Below are positions 3,740 to 46,820 of a stretch of 64,000 bases of DNA, piece by piece. The position numbers and the translations under genes are program-made. The DNA is from Candidatus Thiodiazotropha endoloripes (GTDB taxonomy: Bacteria; Pseudomonadota; Gammaproteobacteria; Chromatiales; Chromatiaceae). Below the pieces are notes generated by a model. It searched no databases, was not told the origin of the DNA, and was given only the letters and a program-made list of their open reading frames with translations. Every line of letters begins with the position of its first letter. Position 1 is the stretch's first letter. The stretch lies in assembly GCF_001708965.1 (NCBI RefSeq), contig NZ_LVJW01000006.1, forward strand, positions 1 to 64,000. Reading direction: 5' to 3'.

Positions 3740-5895
3740 GCGGTGCAAAGCAAAAGCCGATTCTCAGTGAAGTACTTGCCGATGCGCTCAGACATAACCG
3801 GCTGGATGATATTCATCTGGATTCCCCCTTTGCCGCCAGTCTGATGCCACTGCTCAAAGCCTTGGGCTGGCACCACTATGCCCGTGAACTGATCGAGGCA
3901 CTCCCCCACTTCACAGACACCATCGACCTGGTCGACCTGCGTAACATTCTGGTCAATCTCGGTTATGAAAGCAGTGTTGAGAAAATCAATCTTCGAGATA
4001 TCCGCGAGGAGCTCTACCCATGCCTGTTTTTAGGCCGTAAAGGGGAAATCCTGGTACTTGAAGAGCATCACAAAGATACCATCAGCTTCTATGATGCCAA
4101 TAGCGGTGAACATAAGACACATCCGGTAAAATCCCTGAAGGGTACTGCCTACTACTTCACCGATACCCACAATCCACATGGATTTGTTGAGACCGAATCG
4201 AGACAGGCCTGGTTTGCAAGGTTGATGCGACGCTTTCAGGGTCTTACCTGGCATCTGCTTTCAATGAGTTTTTTGATCAACCTGGTTGCAATGGCTGTAC
4301 CGCTATTCATCATGCTGGTCTATGACAAGGTAATCGGTGCAAAATCGGTCGATGCCCTTCCCTGGATGGTAGCCGGAATCGGCTCAGCACTGCTCGCTGA
4401 TATGGCATTGCGTTATCTACGTGCTCGCGTCATTGGTAATATTGCCGGCCGTCTTGACTATTTGATCGGTGTCGAAACCTTTAAACAGATTCTGCACCTG
4501 CCACCGCTGTTCACTGAGCGTTCAACCATGGCGGCTCAACTCTCCAGACTGAAACAGTTTGACTCGGTACGTGACTTTTTCACCGGCCCGAATGCCACAC
4601 TGATCCTGGAATTGCCGTTTGTGCTGATGTTTGTCATTGTGATCGGCTTCATCGCCGGACCGGTAGCACTTGTACCGGTTGTGATGCTGATTATCTACGC
4701 CGCCTTTGGTGCACTCTGGTTACCCGCAAGCGCTCACCGGGTCACCCATGCATCGTCTTCCCGTACGGATAAACAGCGTATGCAGATACAGACATTGAAC
4801 GGACGCTACGAAATCAAGGGCGTTGGCGGGGAAACCACCTGGTGGGAACGCTATCGGGAATTTTCAGGCGAAGCGGTGACTGCCAACTATCGTACTACCG
4901 TATCGAATGCAGTCATCAATTCATTTGCGCAAGGCGCAATGAGTCTATCGGGTGTTGCCGTGCTCGCCATCGGTACCTACATGGTGATCGAGGGTTCCAT
5001 GAGTATCGGAGCGCTGATTGCCACCATGGCGTTGATCTGGAGGGTTCTGGCGCCGTTACAGAGCGCCTTTCTCAGTTTCAGCCGTTTCGAACAGGTCTCC
5101 AAAACCATACAGCAGATCAACCAGTTGATGAAACTCGATGTGGAACGACATAGCGGCCGATCAGCGTTGATGCTTACCGAGCTGAAGGGGCGTATCAATA
5201 TCGACCGAGTCAGCTTCCGCTATGGACCGAATTATGATCCGGCACTGCTTGGAATTTCGGTACATGTTGAGCCTGGTGAGATGCTTGCGATTATGGGTGA
5301 AACTGGATCAGGTAAATCCACATTGACTAAACTCATTGCCGGTATGTACAGACCACAAGCCGGCTCACTCTCGATCGATGAATTTGACATCAGGCAACTC
5401 AATGCCATGGACCTGCGTCGTGCCATTGCGTATGTACCGCAGAACCCACATTTTTTCCACGGCACGGTCGCACAGAATCTGCGGCTCAACAATGTACTGG
5501 CAACAGATGATGAACTGCGGCAAGCCTGCTCACAGGCAGGCATTCTCGAAGAGATCGAACAACTGCCAAAGGGATTCAACACCCGCATCGGTGACAACAC
5601 AACAGAGCATTTACCACCTGGCCTGACCCGAGGTCTGTCTATGGCAAGAGCTTTTTTACGTTCAGCCCCGATTATTCTGCTTGATGAACCAGGCGCCTCT
5701 CTGGATATCGAGAGTGATGAACGCTTTATGCAGCAGATTAAAAAACTGAAAGGGAAAAAGACCATTATCATGGTCACCCACAGACCCAGCCATGTAAGAC
5801 TGGCTGATAAAGTCATTGTACTGGATCAGGGTTCCGAGGTTTTTGCCGGTGATCCGGACAAAGCGATCCAACTGGTTTTGGAGAGTGTGGCATGA
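3736..5895 (+). CDS. Type I secretion ABC transporter, second subunit (C39-like domain)
   Basis: A 719-residue ABC exporter subunit. Residues 1-150 form a region resembling the peptidase C39-like domain of RTX exporters. The usual catalytic Cys/His pattern is not evident, so it is probably a substrate-docking domain. A membrane domain follows (about 165-450), then a nucleotide-binding domain with Walker A GETGSGKST at about 521 and Walker B ILLDEP with the catalytic Glu retained. The signature is LPPGL rather than LSGGQ. The H-loop (VTHRP) is present. ATGA overlaps couple it to the genes on both sides. With the preceding subunit this gives an asymmetric pair in which both signature motifs diverge. 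The likely substrate is the VCBS adhesin transcribed in the opposite direction. Confidence 0.85.
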   Translation: MSGAKQKPILSEVLADALRHNRLDDIHLDSPFAASLMPLLKALGWHHYARELIEALPHFTDTIDLVDLRNILVNLGYESSVEKINLRDIREELYPCLFLGRKGEILVLEEHHKDTISFYDANSGEHKTHPVKSLKGTAYYFTDTHNPHGFVETESRQAWFARLMRRFQGLTWHLLSMSFLINLVAMAVPLFIMLVYDKVIGAKSVDALPWMVAGIGSALLADMALRYLRARVIGNIAGRLDYLIGVETFKQILHLPPLFTERSTMAAQLSRLKQFDSVRDFFTGPNATLILELPFVLMFVIVIGFIAGPVALVPVVMLIIYAAFGALWLPASAHRVTHASSSRTDKQRMQIQTLNGRYEIKGVGGETTWWERYREFSGEAVTANYRTTVSNAVINSFAQGAMSLSGVAVLAIGTYMVIEGSMSIGALIATMALIWRVLAPLQSAFLSFSRFEQVSKTIQQINQLMKLDVERHSGRSALMLTELKGRINIDRVSFRYGPNYDPALLGISVHVEPGEMLAIMGETGSGKSTLTKLIAGMYRPQAGSLSIDEFDIRQLNAMDLRRAIAYVPQNPHFFHGTVAQNLRLNNVLATDDELRQACSQAGILEEIEQLPKGFNTRIGDNTTEHLPPGLTRGLSMARAFLRSAPIILLDEPGASLDIESDERFMQQIKKLKGKKTIIMVTHRPSHVRLADKVIVLDQGSEVFAGDPDKAIQLVLESVA

Positions 5896-7247
5896 AAGAA
5901 GACAGCATCGTTTTTGCTCAGGAAAGTACGGCAGGATTACCCAGAGCAAGAGCACACTACCTGGCACAAGCCATCAAGCTGGAAGAGGTGACCCCTTCCC
6001 GCACACTCAGTGCCGCTATCGTTGTCAGTATTTTTCTATTTGTCTCTCTACTCTTCTGGGGAGCACAGACCAGGATCAGTGAGGTCGCCATAGCCAAGGG
6101 TGAAGTCATACCTTCAGATCTGATTATAAATATTCAACATCTTGAAGGAGGTATCGTCAGACAGCTGAATGTTCGTAATGGGGATCAGGTGGAACAAGGT
6201 GATACTCTTGTCAACTTCTCTCCATCATCATCTCAGTCGGAACTGCAGCAGATGTTGACCCGCAAAGCCAGTTTGCAATTGCAGGGAGAGCGACTGCAGG
6301 CGTTGGTGGAAAATCGTGATCCGGACTTCAGCAATCTGCAAAGTGAACACCCTGATCTTGCAGCCAAGCAGAAAACCATATACCTGGCACAAGTGAATGG
6401 CCTGGAGAGTGAGCTTGCGGTGATTGAAAGCCAGATCAGCCAGCGAAAGAATCAACTGACCCGTCAACGGAATCAGGTCAAAGCTCTGCGTAAAGAGTTG
6501 ACTATCTACAAAGAGCAGGTCTCGATCAGACAATCTCTAGCGAAGAAAGGTACGGTTTCACGTACAGAGCTGCTCAGTGCACGCTCTCGCCTGGCAGAAG
6601 CTGAAAGTGAACTGAGAAAAACCGTAGATGGCATTGCTGTTGCCAAAACGGAACTGGAAGAGAGCAAACAACGCAAACTGGAGCTGTTCAGCAGACACAA
6701 CAAAGAGATCGAATTGGAAGCCGGAAGCGTTGCATCGGAGCTGGCGGAAGTGGAAGGTACTTTGATCCGTTTGCGCGATCGTTTTGATCGACTGCAGGTA
6801 AAGGCACCCATTGACGGTATCGTTAAAAGTTTGACGATAAACAGTAACAACACTGTAGTTGCACCCGGCGAAGTGATCATGCAGCTGGTACCGGTTAAAA
6901 ACGAATTGATCGTTGAGGCAAAAATCCTCCCCCAGGATATCGGGCATGTTCATATCGAACAGTCTGCGGAATTAAAATTTACCAGCTACGATTCATCCCG
7001 CTTCGGCAGCCTGCAGGGCAAGGTACACAAGATTTCCGCCTCCACCTACCTCGATCAGGAACAGAACCCCTACTATCGGGCTGAAGTCATTCTTGACCGT
7101 AACTATCTGGGCAGCAATCCCGAACAGCTGAAGATTCTGCCAGGCATGACCGTCACGGCGGAAATACGCACTGGAGAAAAAACCATTCTGGACTACCTCA
7201 TGCGACCAGTCAGCCGAGGCATGGACAGCGCTTTCAGAGAGCGCTGA
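5892..7247 (+). CDS. HlyD-family type I secretion periplasmic adaptor
   Basis: A 451-residue membrane-fusion protein linking the ABC exporter to an outer-membrane TolC-type channel. It has a cytoplasmic N-terminus, one membrane segment at about residues 38-56, a lipoyl-type half-motif (GGIVRQLNVRNGDQVEQGD), a long Glu/Lys/Gln-rich coiled coil at about 115-290, and the return half of the lipoyl domain followed by the HlyD beta-barrel (KAPIDGIVKSL to the C-terminus). The start codon overlaps the stop of the preceding ABC gene. No outer-membrane factor gene follows; it may lie elsewhere in the genome or left of this window. Confidence 0.9.
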   Translation: MKEDSIVFAQESTAGLPRARAHYLAQAIKLEEVTPSRTLSAAIVVSIFLFVSLLFWGAQTRISEVAIAKGEVIPSDLIINIQHLEGGIVRQLNVRNGDQVEQGDTLVNFSPSSSQSELQQMLTRKASLQLQGERLQALVENRDPDFSNLQSEHPDLAAKQKTIYLAQVNGLESELAVIESQISQRKNQLTRQRNQVKALRKELTIYKEQVSIRQSLAKKGTVSRTELLSARSRLAEAESELRKTVDGIAVAKTELEESKQRKLELFSRHNKEIELEAGSVASELAEVEGTLIRLRDRFDRLQVKAPIDGIVKSLTINSNNTVVAPGEVIMQLVPVKNELIVEAKILPQDIGHVHIEQSAELKFTSYDSSRFGSLQGKVHKISASTYLDQEQNPYYRAEVILDRNYLGSNPEQLKILPGMTVTAEIRTGEKTILDYLMRPVSRGMDSAFRER

Positions 7248-41983: not shown

Positions 41984-42610
41984 TCAAACATGTTCAGACA
42001 TGGTTCGCGCCAGGGCAATCAGCAGCTGCCTCGATTTGCTGTTCATCTCTGAGTAGATGGTCATCAGTTCACGCAGATCGTCAGGAAATGATCCGCATAG
42101 GCCATCCGACTCAATATGCTGCTCATCCAACCATTTGACCGGCCTGTCACTGGCCTTTTCGATGTTGCGCGCTAGACGCTCACCGATATGTTTGAAGGGA
42201 TTATCGATATGATCGGCCAGCTGAGCGGCCTTGAGCCGGCTGGCCAAGAGTAATTCAGCGATCGCCTCCGATCCTTCGGCCTCAGTCTGGCGATAGAGAA
42301 ATACCAGGTTCTGATGCCTTACCGCTTGCAGATCCCGCTCGCCGGAACGGATCGGGCCAAGTCCGAACATGATCCAGCAGGTCGATGTGCCCGTGGTCCT
42401 GGCAATGATCTCAACATGGCCGGGATGGGGCATGGAGTAACCGGCCTCATACCAGGAGAGCCTGTTTTCCGGCCACTTCGGTAACTTCTCCCTGAACGCC
42501 TTGGCTGTCTTGAAACCAGCCATCTTGCGGGCCTGAGCAATACGTTTACCAATCTTCACCGCAACCGGGTCTTTACTGCGCGACTGGCCGATTGAATTAT
42601 TTTTTGTCAT
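41984..42610 (-). CDS. HTH (Cro/C1-type) regulator, unassigned
   Basis: A 208-residue protein. Residues about 18-75 look like a helix-turn-helix of the Cro/C1 type: KIGKRIAQARKMAGFKTAKAF, then RLSWYEAGYSMPHPGHVEIIARTTG. The C-terminal 130 residues are helical and unrecognised. It faces folP's 5' end and is divergent from the island genes. A plus-strand sigma70-like promoter begins 16 bp from its start codon, so binding near its own promoter would control both directions. It may be the island's regulator; the target is unknown. Confidence 0.7.
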   Translation of the reverse strand: MTKNNSIGQSRSKDPVAVKIGKRIAQARKMAGFKTAKAFREKLPKWPENRLSWYEAGYSMPHPGHVEIIARTTGTSTCWIMFGLGPIRSGERDLQAVRHQNLVFLYRQTEAEGSEAIAELLLASRLKAAQLADHIDNPFKHIGERLARNIEKASDRPVKWLDEQHIESDGLCGSFPDDLRELMTIYSEMNSKSRQLLIALARTMSEHV

Positions 42611-42625
42611 ATGCAAAAAATTCTC

Positions 42626-42653
42626 TTGCAAAATAAAAGATCAGCATTATACT
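42626..42653 (+). promoter_or_regulatory. Sigma70-like promoter divergent from the HTH gene
   Basis: TTGCAA (42626-42631) and TATACT (42648-42653), 16 bp apart, close to consensus. It would start a transcript near 42660 that covers the small ORF at 42725 and ends at the tandem hairpins at 42884-42953. Confidence 0.6.
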
Positions 42654-43431: not shown

Positions 43432-43539
43432 ATGCATCAATTTTCAACCTTAACCCGCCAACCTATCTGCACCTCTGCAACCAAGGAGAGTGAACATGGA
43501 GCAGAACGACTTAAAGGAGCTGTTGGCCTGTCTGCCTAA
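43432..43539 (+). CDS. Possible 35-residue leader peptide overlapping the next gene
   Basis: ATG at 43432 follows GGGAG with 6-bp spacing. The ORF (MHQFSTLTRQPICTSATK ...) runs to TAA at 43537 and overlaps the start of the EIQSDW gene in another frame. It may couple translation. Support is only the ribosome-binding site and the overlap. Confidence 0.25.
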   Translation: MHQFSTLTRQPICTSATKESEHGAERLKGAVGLSA

Positions 43540-44443
43540 AGAGAGAACCCTCTATCCATACTGCCAGGATTACTATGCCGTGCAACTGCTGCAGATTGCA
43601 GCGAAAAAGCACCAGTCGATTCAAGCAATAAAGGGGTCGAAGTTTGGCCGCCTGCTGAACAAACCATCGATAACATCACTACTCAGCAGCTGTGGCAATG
43701 GCTGTATCAGCGGTGAACTGTTGAACAGCTATTGGCAGGAGCCCGGCACCACCTACCTGATTACCACCGGTGTCTGGGGCAGTAGATCCGACCGATATGC
43801 ACAGACATCGAGACCCGGTATCAATCTGGTGCTGCGTCTCAATTTCAACCATCAACATGACCAGATGTTTCATCAATCGATCCACCCTGTTGAGGATGGC
43901 GTGTTCAACAACTGGGGCCATCCGGTACTGCAACGCGGCGATCGCAGCTACTACCGTGAGACCCTGGCCTGGTCGCGGCTGGATATCGACCTTCAGTTGG
44001 GCGAAGTGCTGATTGAAGAGATCCAGAGTGACTGGGTCAGAGATGTCAGCTGGCTGAACAAGTGGCGTCAATGCTGCGCAACAGATGAGGATCCCCTACA
44101 TTGCTACAGCTTCAATACCACCGCCGCACTGGCCGGTCGTTATCTGAATTTTGTGCAACCGCTGCTGAAACAGTGGAGTCAGGCAATGCTCGCGGCAACC
44201 ATCGACTTTATCAACCGTGAGCTGGGATTGAAACGTATCTGGTTCCACAGTTGGGAAGTCGGTAACTGTCTGAAGCGTATCAAGGGCAGCTATGTACCGC
44301 CCAGATCACTCTACACCAGCCTGCCGAGACAGTTCTGTTTCGAACTGACCGATCAACTGCCAGGCCTGTTGAGTGACAGACGCACAATCAAACGCCTGCG
44401 CCGGGGAAAAATCTCGCCCCGATTTTATAAACTAGAACTATGA
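43496..44443 (+). CDS. Conserved-looking protein with EIQSDW motif, adjacent to rtcB
   Basis: A 315-residue soluble protein. ATG at 43496 follows AAGGAGA with good spacing. I do not recognise the whole family. The centre has EVLIEEIQSDWVRD (about 170-183), a motif I associate with domains in large phage or plasmid polyvalent proteins. Further conserved-looking strings are IRPGINLVLRLNFNHQ-like, ELGLKRIWFHSWEVGN and PPRSLYTSLPRQFCFE. No signal peptide or membrane segment. It ends 12 bp before rtcB, so the two are surely one operon. A role in RNA repair or damage response is inferred only from this pairing. Confidence 0.75.
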   Translation: MEQNDLKELLACLPKERTLYPYCQDYYAVQLLQIAAKKHQSIQAIKGSKFGRLLNKPSITSLLSSCGNGCISGELLNSYWQEPGTTYLITTGVWGSRSDRYAQTSRPGINLVLRLNFNHQHDQMFHQSIHPVEDGVFNNWGHPVLQRGDRSYYRETLAWSRLDIDLQLGEVLIEEIQSDWVRDVSWLNKWRQCCATDEDPLHCYSFNTTAALAGRYLNFVQPLLKQWSQAMLAATIDFINRELGLKRIWFHSWEVGNCLKRIKGSYVPPRSLYTSLPRQFCFELTDQLPGLLSDRRTIKRLRRGKISPRFYKLEL

Positions 44444-44455
44444 GGGATTATAGCT

Positions 44456-45655
44456 ATGCCTATTTTACAAACACTCAATAAAGGAAAGGTGCCGGTCCAC
44501 ATCTGGACCGGCGATACGGAAACCACAGCACTCAACCAGCTTGAGAATGTATCCCGTATGCCTTTCATCCACCACCACGTGGCAGCCATGCCCGATGTCC
44601 ATATGGGTATAGGTGCGACTGTCGGGTCAGTGATCCCAACCAAGGGGGCGATTGTACCGGCGGCGGTTGGCGTGGACATCGGTTGTGGTATGAATGCCAT
44701 CCGGCTCTCCCTGTCAGCAGCTGAACTGCCGGATAGCCTGCGTATGCTGCGTAATCGTATCGAGCAGGCGATTCCGGTGGGATTCGACATGCATGATCGG
44801 GATCCGGTCAAACGCTCAACCATTGTGCCTATGGCAAAACGACTGGATCAGATTCTTGATCGTCATCCGGCTATCGCCAAGATGCAGCGCAAGCGGCCCT
44901 ACGACATCTGGGTTCGTCAACTGGCGACCCTGGGTGGCGGCAACCATTTTATCGAGCTCTGCCTGGATGAAAACGAGGCGGTCTGGGTCATGCTGCACTC
45001 CGGTTCCCGGGGTATCGGGAATGTGATTGGTCGCTACTTCATCGAACTGGCGCGCAAGGATATGGGGGATCAACTGGGAAGATTACCCGACCGGGACCTG
45101 GCCTACTTCAGCGAAGGCGCTCAGCATTTCGATGACTACATCGAGGCGGTTGATTGGGCCCAGGACTATGCCATGATCAATCGCCGGGAGATGATGCAGC
45201 ATATGCTGGACGTGCTGGGGAGGCATCTGCCTCACTTCACGATCACCAAAGAGGCGATCAACTGTCACCACAACTATGTGGTACGGGAATACCACTTCGG
45301 TGCCGAAGTCTATGTCACCCGCAAAGGTGCCATACGTGCCGGTGAAGGTGAACTGGGAATCATCCCCGGTTCGATGGGTGCTAAGTCCTACATTGTTCGA
45401 GGCAAGGGTAGTGAGGCATCGTTCTGCTCCTGCTCCCACGGCGCGGGACGCCGTATGTCCCGTTCAAAGGCCAAACGGCAATTCAACCGGGCCGATCTGG
45501 AATCCCAGACCCAGGGTGTGGAGTGTCGCAAGGACAAAGGGGTGATCGATGAGATCCCCGCTGCCTATAAGGACATCGATCAGGTGATGGCCAACCAGAG
45601 CGACCTGGTTGAAGTGGTACACACCCTGAAGCAGGTGATGTGTGTAAAAGGTTAA
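44456..45655 (+). CDS. rtcB: RNA-splicing ligase RtcB
   Basis: A 399-residue GTP-dependent, Mn-dependent ligase that joins 2',3'-cyclic phosphate or 3'-phosphate ends to 5'-OH RNA ends. All key motifs are visible: MPDVHMGIGATVGSVIP, the metal Cys in VGVDIGCGM (about residue 77), GGGNHFIE, HSGSRGIGN, HHNY, GIIPGSMGAKSYIV and the guanylylated His in CSHGAGRRMSRSKA (about 328). No rtcA or rtcR-type regulator is nearby. It is co-transcribed with the EIQSDW gene upstream and probably with the small basic gene downstream. Confidence 0.96.
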   Translation: MPILQTLNKGKVPVHIWTGDTETTALNQLENVSRMPFIHHHVAAMPDVHMGIGATVGSVIPTKGAIVPAAVGVDIGCGMNAIRLSLSAAELPDSLRMLRNRIEQAIPVGFDMHDRDPVKRSTIVPMAKRLDQILDRHPAIAKMQRKRPYDIWVRQLATLGGGNHFIELCLDENEAVWVMLHSGSRGIGNVIGRYFIELARKDMGDQLGRLPDRDLAYFSEGAQHFDDYIEAVDWAQDYAMINRREMMQHMLDVLGRHLPHFTITKEAINCHHNYVVREYHFGAEVYVTRKGAIRAGEGELGIIPGSMGAKSYIVRGKGSEASFCSCSHGAGRRMSRSKAKRQFNRADLESQTQGVECRKDKGVIDEIPAAYKDIDQVMANQSDLVEVVHTLKQVMCVKG

Positions 45656-45676
45656 GTGGGCCGGGCTAAGGCCCAC
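45656..45676 (+). promoter_or_regulatory. Intercistronic hairpin after rtcB
   Basis: GTGGGCC/GGCCCAC, 7 pairs with a 7-nt loop, starts at the base after the rtcB stop codon. No T-run follows, so it may be a processing or stability element. Confidence 0.5.
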
Positions 45677-45707
45677 ATATATTAATGTTGAAATTGAGGA
45701 ACTACTG

Positions 45708-45989
45708 ATGAAGAAAAAAGCTGACAGGGCACGCAATCTGTTGCACAACCACCCGATGCTGCGCAAAGGGGGTGTGCATGATAAATCCAACAAGGCCAAA
45801 CGCCGGAAGGAGAGACAAAACCTACGCAAGGCGTGGTTTTCTCTGAGCACACACTGTGTGTTGAGAGAAGACCACGTCGCTGCGGTATCATCCTTGCTTA
45901 CACAGACTCTGAATTATCTAACGGGCAAACCGTTGACTGACTGCAGTTTCGAAATTAAAACTTTTGTGTCTTTCCCATCCACCATCTAG
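45708..45989 (+). CDS. Small basic protein, ArfA-like candidate with hairpin inside the ORF
   Basis: A 93-codon ORF with GAGGA well placed before the ATG at 45708. Residues 1-46 are strongly basic: MKKKADRARNLLHNHPMLRK, then KSNKAKRRKERQNLRKAWFSL. The arrangement LLHxxPxxR followed by a Lys/Arg-rich stretch resembles ArfA, the alternative ribosome-rescue factor. A 20-bp hairpin (45832-45876) covers codons 42-57, just after the basic part, and residues beyond it look non-coding in character. In E. coli, arfA mRNA is cut by RNase III at such an in-frame hairpin, giving a stop-less mRNA and a truncated active protein. The ArfA assignment is an inference from pattern, not from a clear match. Confidence 0.5.
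   Translation: MKKKADRARNLLHNHPMLRKGGVHDKSNKAKRRKERQNLRKAWFSLSTHCVLREDHVAAVSSLLTQTLNYLTGKPLTDCSFEIKTFVSFPSTI
45832..45876 (+). promoter_or_regulatory. Long RNA hairpin inside the small basic ORF
   Basis: CGTGGTTTTCTCT pairs with AGAGAAGACCACG and the stem continues with AGCACAC/GTGTGTT to a 3-nt loop. About 20 pairs with one mismatch (G45-G63) and two or three G-U pairs. No T-run follows, so it is a poor intrinsic terminator and a good RNase III-type substrate. Confidence 0.75.
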
Positions 45990-46112
45990 GCGTAATTTTC
46001 CCAGTCACCTATGCTACAGACTGTGTCTGAGGTTGCTTGTTAACCCGGCGACCAAATCGATTTTGTGATTGATGTTGAATCACGGATCACCTACCCCACG
46101 AGGAGAGTCCAC

Positions 46113-46316
46113 ATGTCAGTTGCAAAAGTTACAGAAATCATCACTTCGTCCAGTAAGAGTTTTGATGACGCTGTCACAAAAGGGATCAAACGCGCCAACA
46201 AGACACTGAAAAACATCAAAGGGGCCTGGGTTAAAGATCAACAACTGTCGGTGAGTAATGGCAAGGTCACCGATTACCGGGTAACGCTGAAAGTCACTTT
46301 TGTATTGAAGGATTGA
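46113..46316 (+). CDS. Dodecin
   Basis: A 67-residue flavin-binding storage protein. The family pattern is complete: MSVAKVTEIITSSSKSFDDA, the Trp in IKGAWVKDQ that stacks on flavin, and YRVTLKVTFVL at the end. The ATG at 46113 follows AGGAGAG; an upstream in-frame start lacks this support. Confidence 0.93.
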   Translation: MSVAKVTEIITSSSKSFDDAVTKGIKRANKTLKNIKGAWVKDQQLSVSNGKVTDYRVTLKVTFVLKD

Positions 46317-46388
46317 ATAACCGATTGAGCGGGATATTCAGCCGCAGAGAATACCTAACAACACAACTTAAGATAGGAGCACGCAGCA

Positions 46389-46820
46389 ATGGGACTGTTC
46401 GATTTCGCAACCGATTTAGGCAAAAAACTGTTTGGTAAGGATGACGATCCGGCAGAGAAAATTAAGCAGCAGATTGAATCGGACAATCCGGGTATTCAGG
46501 ATCTGGATGTCAGCTATGAAAACGGCAAGGTAATCCTGTCAGGCAATGCAGAAACGGCTGAAGCTTTGGAAAAGGGCGTATTGATCGCCGGGAATGTTGT
46601 CGGTGTCAGCGAAGTGAGTGCCGATGGTGTTACGGCTCCGGAGCAACAGTCCAAGGTGGAATACTATACGATCGTCAGTGGTGACACGCTATCGGCAATC
46701 GCCAAACGTTTCCTCGGCAATGCCTCGGCATACCCGAAGATTTTTGAAGCAAACCGCGAAGTGATCAAGGATCCCAACCTGATCTATCCAGGACAGAAGA
46801 TCCGCATACCCATGGACTAA
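46389..46820 (+). CDS. kbp: Kbp-like BON-LysM protein
   Basis: A 143-residue cytoplasmic protein like E. coli Kbp (YgaU), a potassium-binding protein. It starts MGLFDFATDLGKKLFG, has a BON domain at about 20-85 (VSYENGKVILSGNAETAEAL) and a C-terminal LysM domain (YYTIVSGDTLSAIAKRFLG ... NLIYPGQKIRIP). Length and domain order match E. coli Kbp. AGGAGC lies before the ATG. A strong terminator follows. Confidence 0.92.
   Translation: MGLFDFATDLGKKLFGKDDDPAEKIKQQIESDNPGIQDLDVSYENGKVILSGNAETAEALEKGVLIAGNVVGVSEVSADGVTAPEQQSKVEYYTIVSGDTLSAIAKRFLGNASAYPKIFEANREVIKDPNLIYPGQKIRIPMD

Follow-up and report, generated by a model that had tools for sequence, protein, structure and literature searches.

A short gene downstream of rtcB in Candidatus Thiodiazotropha endoloripes and its probable place in a nonstop-regulated ribosome-rescue family unrelated to ArfA by sequence

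Candidatus Thiodiazotropha bacteria are symbionts of lucinid clams. In the 64,000-nucleotide stretch of the Ca. T. endoloripes genome analyzed here (the window), a short basic reading frame follows the RNA ligase gene rtcB, and a first-pass annotation made from the letters alone proposed it as a candidate ArfA, the protein known as YhdL in E. coli. The E. coli arfA message is cleaved by RNase III and its transcripts end at a stem (PMC3989581). We asked whether the frame in the window encodes ArfA, another protein that works in a similar way, or something else. The features needed to follow the argument are listed here.

43490..44443, + strand: gene X, 317 aa, from a family without a name; recurs as a neighbour of rtcB and of the small ORF
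44456..45655, + strand: rtcB, RNA ligase, short (~430-bit) subtype (PF01139, E=2.7e-129)
45656..45676, + strand: small hairpin GTGGGCC..GGCCCAC between rtcB and the small ORF, read from the sequence
45708..45989, + strand: small basic ORF of 93 codons (frame in the sequence, homologues L002-L013, dN/dS)
45732..45806, + strand: conserved core RNLLHNHPMLRKGGVHDKSNKAKRR (alignment of 34 diverse members)
45830..45878, + strand: in-frame hairpin, candidate RNase III site that would yield nonstop mRNA (fold, alignment, stem scan)
45879..45989, + strand: frame beyond the hairpin, of variable length, sequence and even frame (homologue comparison)

The small reading frame and its hairpin

The 93-residue product reads MKKKADRARNLLHNHPMLRKGGVHDKSNKAKRRKERQNLRKAWFSLSTH... 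and carries the features for which it was first singled out, an LLHxxPxxR motif followed by a stretch rich in lysine and arginine. A search of 142 related genomes returned 12 strong homologues beyond the query (L002-L013), which share the frame with few substitutions: RNLLHNHPMLRKGGVH.K..KA.RR......LRKaWFSLS. Of 11 pairs tried, 9 allowed dN/dS to be computed over codons 1-38, with values of 0.08-0.23, and in the other 2 dS was saturated. This purifying selection supports the conclusion that the small ORF behaves as a coding gene. K20, H24 and R32 do not vary among 34 diverse members, and R9, N10, P16, G21 and G22 hardly do. The family was found in 30 of 369 genomes of an evenly drawn class sample at E<=0.01 and in 27 at E<=1e-6, a cut that was picked after the match list was known. 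It also occurs in Reinekea marinisedimentorum and several gammaproteobacterial MAGs.

The ORF matched no Pfam or NCBIfam family. None of the 34 members matched an NCBIfam model; single members weakly matched three unrelated Pfam models (the best ribosomal protein S21, 0.021), and no RF-1 (GGQ) domain, ArfB or PrfH model was among the Pfam or NCBIfam matches of the ORF or its family. Sequence search returned no solved structure for the family, and Rfam found nothing above threshold over 44300-46500, where a snoRNA match at E 0.57 was sub-threshold. Phage and plasmid records gave no tblastn match to the family at E<=1 (E<=5 in one search). The phage family phrog_5655 weakly matched 8 of the 34 members (best E 2.9e-4) and was set aside, as it was not found in the viral record that encodes a relative of the small ORF and has matches in 8 of 14 control genomes. 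That record is a 90-kb IMG/VR contig (L188), and the relative at 3917-4012 has, by eye, an in-frame inverted repeat before its stop codon. Among the listed matches in open-licence PMC texts, we recognised no paper on this family, on an ArfB-rtcB unit or on a unit of the small ORF with rtcB.

The frame runs through a hairpin of 22 bp with one mismatch and a 3-nt loop, which lies wholly within the frame and 5' of the stop codon (45830-45878). The first-pass annotation had described an in-frame stem of about 20 bp without a T-run, and the closer measurement agrees: the next bases are GCTGCGGTATC, with no T-run. Folding of 45818-45900 gave -42.6 kcal/mol (z = -7.4), a value that none of 200 shuffles equalled. 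In a scan that allowed up to 2 mismatches, no bulge and loops of 3-9, the hairpin was the sole stem of at least 18 bp in the window, the runner-up having 17.

We found the hairpin at the same place in each of the 12 homologues, and the protein is kept only up to it; beyond it length, sequence and frame all vary. Residues conserved past the hairpin, which the first-pass annotation had named as evidence against its proposal, were not found: only the 3'-arm codons CVLRE.H persist in most near relatives, as pairing demands. An extra loop base shifts the frame in L007 and L008 with the hairpin retained, and in L009, L037 and L184 a stop codon lies in or beside the loop. Because of these cases, selection from about codon 42 looks to act on RNA pairing rather than on protein, and the active product is predicted to comprise about the first 41-50 residues, ending at the hairpin stem.

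Comparison of 13 distinct hairpins from near relatives (L008 duplicates L007, and L011 was excluded for its other loop length) showed that at 5 of the 22 pairs both partners have been replaced without loss of pairing. Overall 96.9% of cells pair, compared with at most 63.6% in slid versions, and RNAalifold recovers the same hairpin fold. The covariation score was matched by 1 of 500 shuffles and the number of further pair types was no better than shuffles (176 of 500 reach it), bearing in mind that related sequences may outperform shuffles even where there is no structure. The slid control points the same way as the covariation, and so do the unrelated hairpins of distant members.

Stems and terminators across the family

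Profile searches yielded 51 family loci, of which 48 were counted once two duplicate contigs (L116, L117) and a near-identical copy elsewhere (L148) had been removed. Between core and stop codon, 15 of the 48 hold an in-frame stem of at least 18 bp, compared with 0 of 381 control ORF ends; without Thiodiazotropha the count is 10 of 43 (Fisher 4e-11 against the controls). An in-frame intrinsic terminator, with its T-run complete ahead of the stop codon, was called in 8 of 48 loci and 7 of 381 controls (Fisher 5e-5); the call in L115 is a T-run inside a long stem, so that 7 of the 8 stand as predicted terminators (L052, L120, L121, L132, L133, L136 and L137). These tests treat loci as independent and compare the last 80 nt of mechanical ORFs of at least 150 aa with family regions from core end to stop, which are longer in some loci.

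By the two criteria, one device or the other is present in 21 of 48 loci, L115 and L133 falling in both counts, and neither in 27. The latter include loci with weaker stems (L042, L044, L127, L138, L141) and some with no clear device (for example L051, L124, L134, L142 and L146); in L124 and L130 a terminator lies 3' of the stop, the normal arrangement. Folds of -25 kcal/mol or lower were found in frame at 22 of 51 family loci, duplicates included, and at 26 of 353 controls (p=1.4e-9), and strong folds near ORF ends are thus not rare.

The hairpins keep their place relative to the protein. Among 19 loci with stems of at least 16 bp, 16 were taken as long stems and L131 was left out, while L052 and L133 were measured as terminators, which lie 54 and 101 nt downstream of the invariant His codon. 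For the 16 long-stem loci, the distance from this codon is 46-60 nt to the start of the hairpin and 84-285 nt to the stop. The steady position across homologues, an alignment that the first-pass annotation had proposed as a check, is accompanied by hairpin sequences that are unlike between lineages. From coordinates, L047, L048, L050 and L125 have their stop codon where the 3' arm leaves the loop, and cleavage within the 5' arm would therefore separate it from the message.

rtcB, gene X and ArfB around the small frame

The small ORF starts 52 nt after the end of rtcB on the same strand; the first-pass annotation had placed it directly after rtcB, and the linkage that it suggested recurs at other loci. 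Within 3.5 kb of the 48 family loci we found RtcB on the same strand in 23, gene X in 13 and a slipin-like gene in 10. Of the 27 family genomes 22 have RtcB, compared with 103 among 342 other genomes of the class (p=1.8e-7); at the looser cut of E<=0.01 the family figure is 23 of 30. No RtcB match was found in 5 of the 27. The small hairpin between the two genes has a T-run at its site in one genome of the genus (G005) and is terminator-like there by eye, so that the small ORF may need read-through or its own promoter.

Gene X has no meaningful Pfam or NCBIfam match and no solved structure by sequence search. Its predicted model (pLDDT 83, pTM 0.86) matched nothing in the PDB at E<=0.001. The best 50 of 252 PDB matches were almost all GNAT acetyltransferases at E>=0.13, which gives only a hint of such a likeness for the model, and the best viral match was part of a 1008-aa protein without a name (E=2.5e-4).

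The ~430-bit RtcB occurs in 14 of 22 genomes of the genus, and the 14 genes adjoin the small ORF in 11 cases, an internally deleted copy in 1 (G005) and an ArfB paralogue in 2 (G001, G002). In the deleted copy (L184), which follows rtcB, the KGGxH and basic middle part is gone and the hairpin is kept. ArfB belongs to the peptidyl-tRNA hydrolase family. The ArfB paralogue sits between gene X and rtcB (L175, L176); the G001 protein scores 145 bits against NF006718, for which the cut-off is 100. Neither G001 nor G002 has a small-ORF match, the G001 contig ending about 650 nt past rtcB, and each has an additional ArfB-size match elsewhere. The neighbourhood is a setting of ribosome rescue, because in these two sister species the rtcB operon holds an ArfB paralogue and no small ORF; this is in line with the connection between RNA repair and rescue of stalled ribosomes that had been suggested from the first sequence reading.

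The association of small ORF and rtcB is loose in both directions. G282 has, one after another, an ArfB gene (192 bits), a remnant of the C-terminal part of rtcB, and the small ORF, and in G138 a remnant of rtcB with stops precedes the small ORF, which thus outlives its neighbour. Forty rtcB loci were fetched and 36 evaluated, a genus pair and two known family loci being taken off. Two of the 36 have gene X (G118, G389), with the small ORF on other contigs. The other 34 show no gene X, small-ORF, ArfB-like or ArfA-like gene in the flanks available, several of which are clipped by contig ends, and several of the RtcBs of these outside loci are close to the type in the window. An RtcB of this kind therefore also occurs without a nearby small ORF, and the family is also found away from RtcB.

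Frames with an RF-1 domain occur in the own genome of the window in two sizes, that of RF1/RF2 and that of ArfB. We also found tmRNA above the cut-off in all 12 family genomes searched, this genome included, and a partner for feedback control therefore exists.

Several other features of these neighbourhoods were recorded. In L123 (G042) the small frame runs straight into the last part of RtcB, which is a fusion, a deletion or an assembly error. A divergent gene upstream in the window (41984-42631, - strand) resembles a regulator of HTH/XRE type by eye and has no Pfam or NCBIfam match at E<=0.01; relatives of it are found upstream of the small ORF at 17 of the 51 loci, or 14 of the 48 that are left once duplicates are removed, including places that lack rtcB. 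Downstream, two genes follow on the + strand (46113-46820), one for a dodecin (PF07311) and one of BON-LysM type (PF04972, PF01476); by eye the BON-LysM gene also follows the small ORF in L149 and L151. In L048 (about 4312-6129) the small ORF, whose stop is at the hairpin loop, immediately precedes typA/bipA; L125 has the same arrangement by eye, and in L135 the small ORF lies upstream of an EF-G-like gene.

Proposed role and relation to known systems

We used the true arfA loci of the same class sample as positive controls. At E<=0.01, ArfA (PF03889) was found in 7 of 369 genomes, 6 of them over the Pfam cut-off, and in 1 of the 142 relatives. The control set is these 6 loci, a seventh (L113) being below the cut-off. 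L107 has a 24-bp in-frame stem and L108 a 21-bp stem with the stop codon mid-hairpin; in L109-L112 the in-frame hairpins measure 12-17 bp, and T-runs accompany some of them. None of the 7 ArfA genomes has the small-ORF family, a lack of overlap that is not significant (p=1). In a published survey, whose genomes were sampled differently, arfA is reported in 699 of 2,704 Gammaproteobacteria (PMC11633108). Our lower rate is expected because lineages were sampled evenly, and the statement that the small-ORF family is commoner than ArfA (27 and 7 of 369) is therefore limited to this sample.

The hairpin anatomy of real arfA loci is thus reproduced in the window, and this part of the ArfA proposal holds. 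Its other part, identity with ArfA, found no footing in the profile searches that the first-pass annotation had suggested, and a lack of profile similarity to ArfA is the second outcome that it had named as refuting its proposal. PF03889 had no match in the own genome at E<=10 and none among the 34 members at E<=1, the NCBIfam ArfA model likewise matched 0 of 34, and hhalign against six ArfA sequences only gave a probability of 1.15% over 12 columns. We rejected membership in ArfA on the grounds of Pfam, NCBIfam and this profile-profile comparison. Where ArfA sequences have an invariant KGK.SY, the small-ORF alignment has KGGxH. The ArfA motif KGKGS is described as serving the mRNA channel (PMC6299226), and it too is missing from the family, with KGGxH in its stead. 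The best inference is that the protein works like ArfA and is not ArfA.

We consider it probable that the small ORF belongs to an unnamed, nonstop-regulated ribosome-rescue family that works in the manner of ArfA and BrfA and is unrelated to ArfA by sequence. This reading builds on the hairpin and its covariation, the loss of protein conservation beyond it, the terminators elsewhere in the family, the linkage to rtcB and gene X, the exchange for ArfB in two sister species, and tmRNA. Counting against it are the 27 of 48 loci with neither device, the strong in-frame folds at some control ORF ends, the pair-type count that shuffles equal, RtcB being within 3.5 kb at only 23 of 48 loci, the 34 of 36 rtcB loci elsewhere that show no such partner, and the ArfB-size RF-1-domain gene of the own genome. 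The message of the gene in the window would be cut within the in-frame hairpin, presumably by RNase III, and an intrinsic terminator would take the place of this cut in other members. A ribosome would run off the shortened message without meeting a stop codon, and while tmRNA-SmpB is active the truncated peptide would receive an SsrA tag and be destroyed. By analogy with ArfA, BrfA and RtcB2-PrfH, the peptide may bind the ribosome, recruit a release factor and rescue it, and RNA damage may be the trigger. The neighbouring rtcB and gene X suggest that the peptide would be of use when RNA is being cleaved and RtcB rejoins the ends. We are evenly divided on a more specific version, in which a release-factor-recruiting family of this kind is built into an RtcB-gene X repair module, is interchangeable with ArfB, and frees ribosomes on cut RNA that RtcB re-ligates.

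Three other explanations were weighed against the nonstop-regulated rescue family. The small ORF could be an accessory of RtcB or gene X, such as an activator, adaptor or signal, whose nonstop expression reads out failure of trans-translation. Its adjacency to the two genes (23 and 13 of 48 loci) and its co-occurrence with RtcB would fit such a role, but the small ORF persists beside mere remnants of rtcB in G138 and G282, 5 of 27 family genomes have no RtcB match, and the operon of two sister species has a protein of the peptidyl-tRNA hydrolase family in its place; we regard this explanation as unlikely. A very diverged true ArfA that Pfam misses is rather improbable. The size is similar, the nonstop devices are of the same kinds, and by eye ArfA also has a short LLHxxP.xR followed by basic residues, yet the absence of ArfA matches in the own genome and among the 34 members, the hhalign result with its six ArfA sequences, and the replacement of the ArfA-invariant KGK.SY all speak against it.

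Could the hairpin instead be an ordinary 3'-end or processing signal that overlaps the frame by chance? The 27 of 48 loci that lack either device, and the 26 of 353 control ORF ends with folds of -25 kcal/mol or lower, speak for such a signal. We nevertheless hold it to be highly improbable, since none of 381 control ORF ends has an in-frame stem of at least 18 bp, the position of the hairpin is fixed relative to the protein and not to the stop, and stop codons stand at the loop in several loci.

According to a review, further small rescue proteins that recruit release factors may exist and be hard to find by similarity (PMC8012679). The nonstop device and the rtcB context of the small ORF point to one such family with concrete members. 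If the nonstop-regulated rescue reading is right, the family would be a candidate backup for Gammaproteobacteria without ArfA, another origin of 'stop-less gene' feedback beside ArfA and BrfA, and a tie between ribosome rescue and RNA repair that parallels RtcB2-PrfH.

The family resembles ArfA in being a short basic protein with an in-frame hairpin 5' of the stop, and differs from it in often adjoining rtcB, in the KGGxH core in place of KGKGS, and in that no sequence relation was found. Another point of comparison is BrfA, the YqkK protein of B. subtilis. An intrinsic terminator within its coding region gives a nonstop mRNA (PMC6881298), and the predicted in-frame terminators of the seven loci named above are similar. 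BrfA differs in being, according to the review (PMC8012679), likely limited to Bacillus. ArfT of Francisella is about 40 aa long with KKGGSTNKK near the C-terminus (PMC6299226), and the KKGGVH.KS.K of the small-ORF family resembles it by eye in combining KGG with basic residues. Its authors report no ArfA-type control of ArfT and, by tblastn, homologues only in Francisella (PMC6299226), whereas another paper calls ArfT broadly distributed (PMC6514570). The RtcB2-PrfH module joins an RNA ligase and a peptide-release factor in one operon (PMC9223846). Pfam and NCBIfam searches found neither PrfH nor RF-1 among the genes that neighbour rtcB in the window; in contrast to RtcB2-PrfH, the ligase gene is accompanied here by gene X and a small nonstop ORF, or by an ArfB paralogue in the two sister species.
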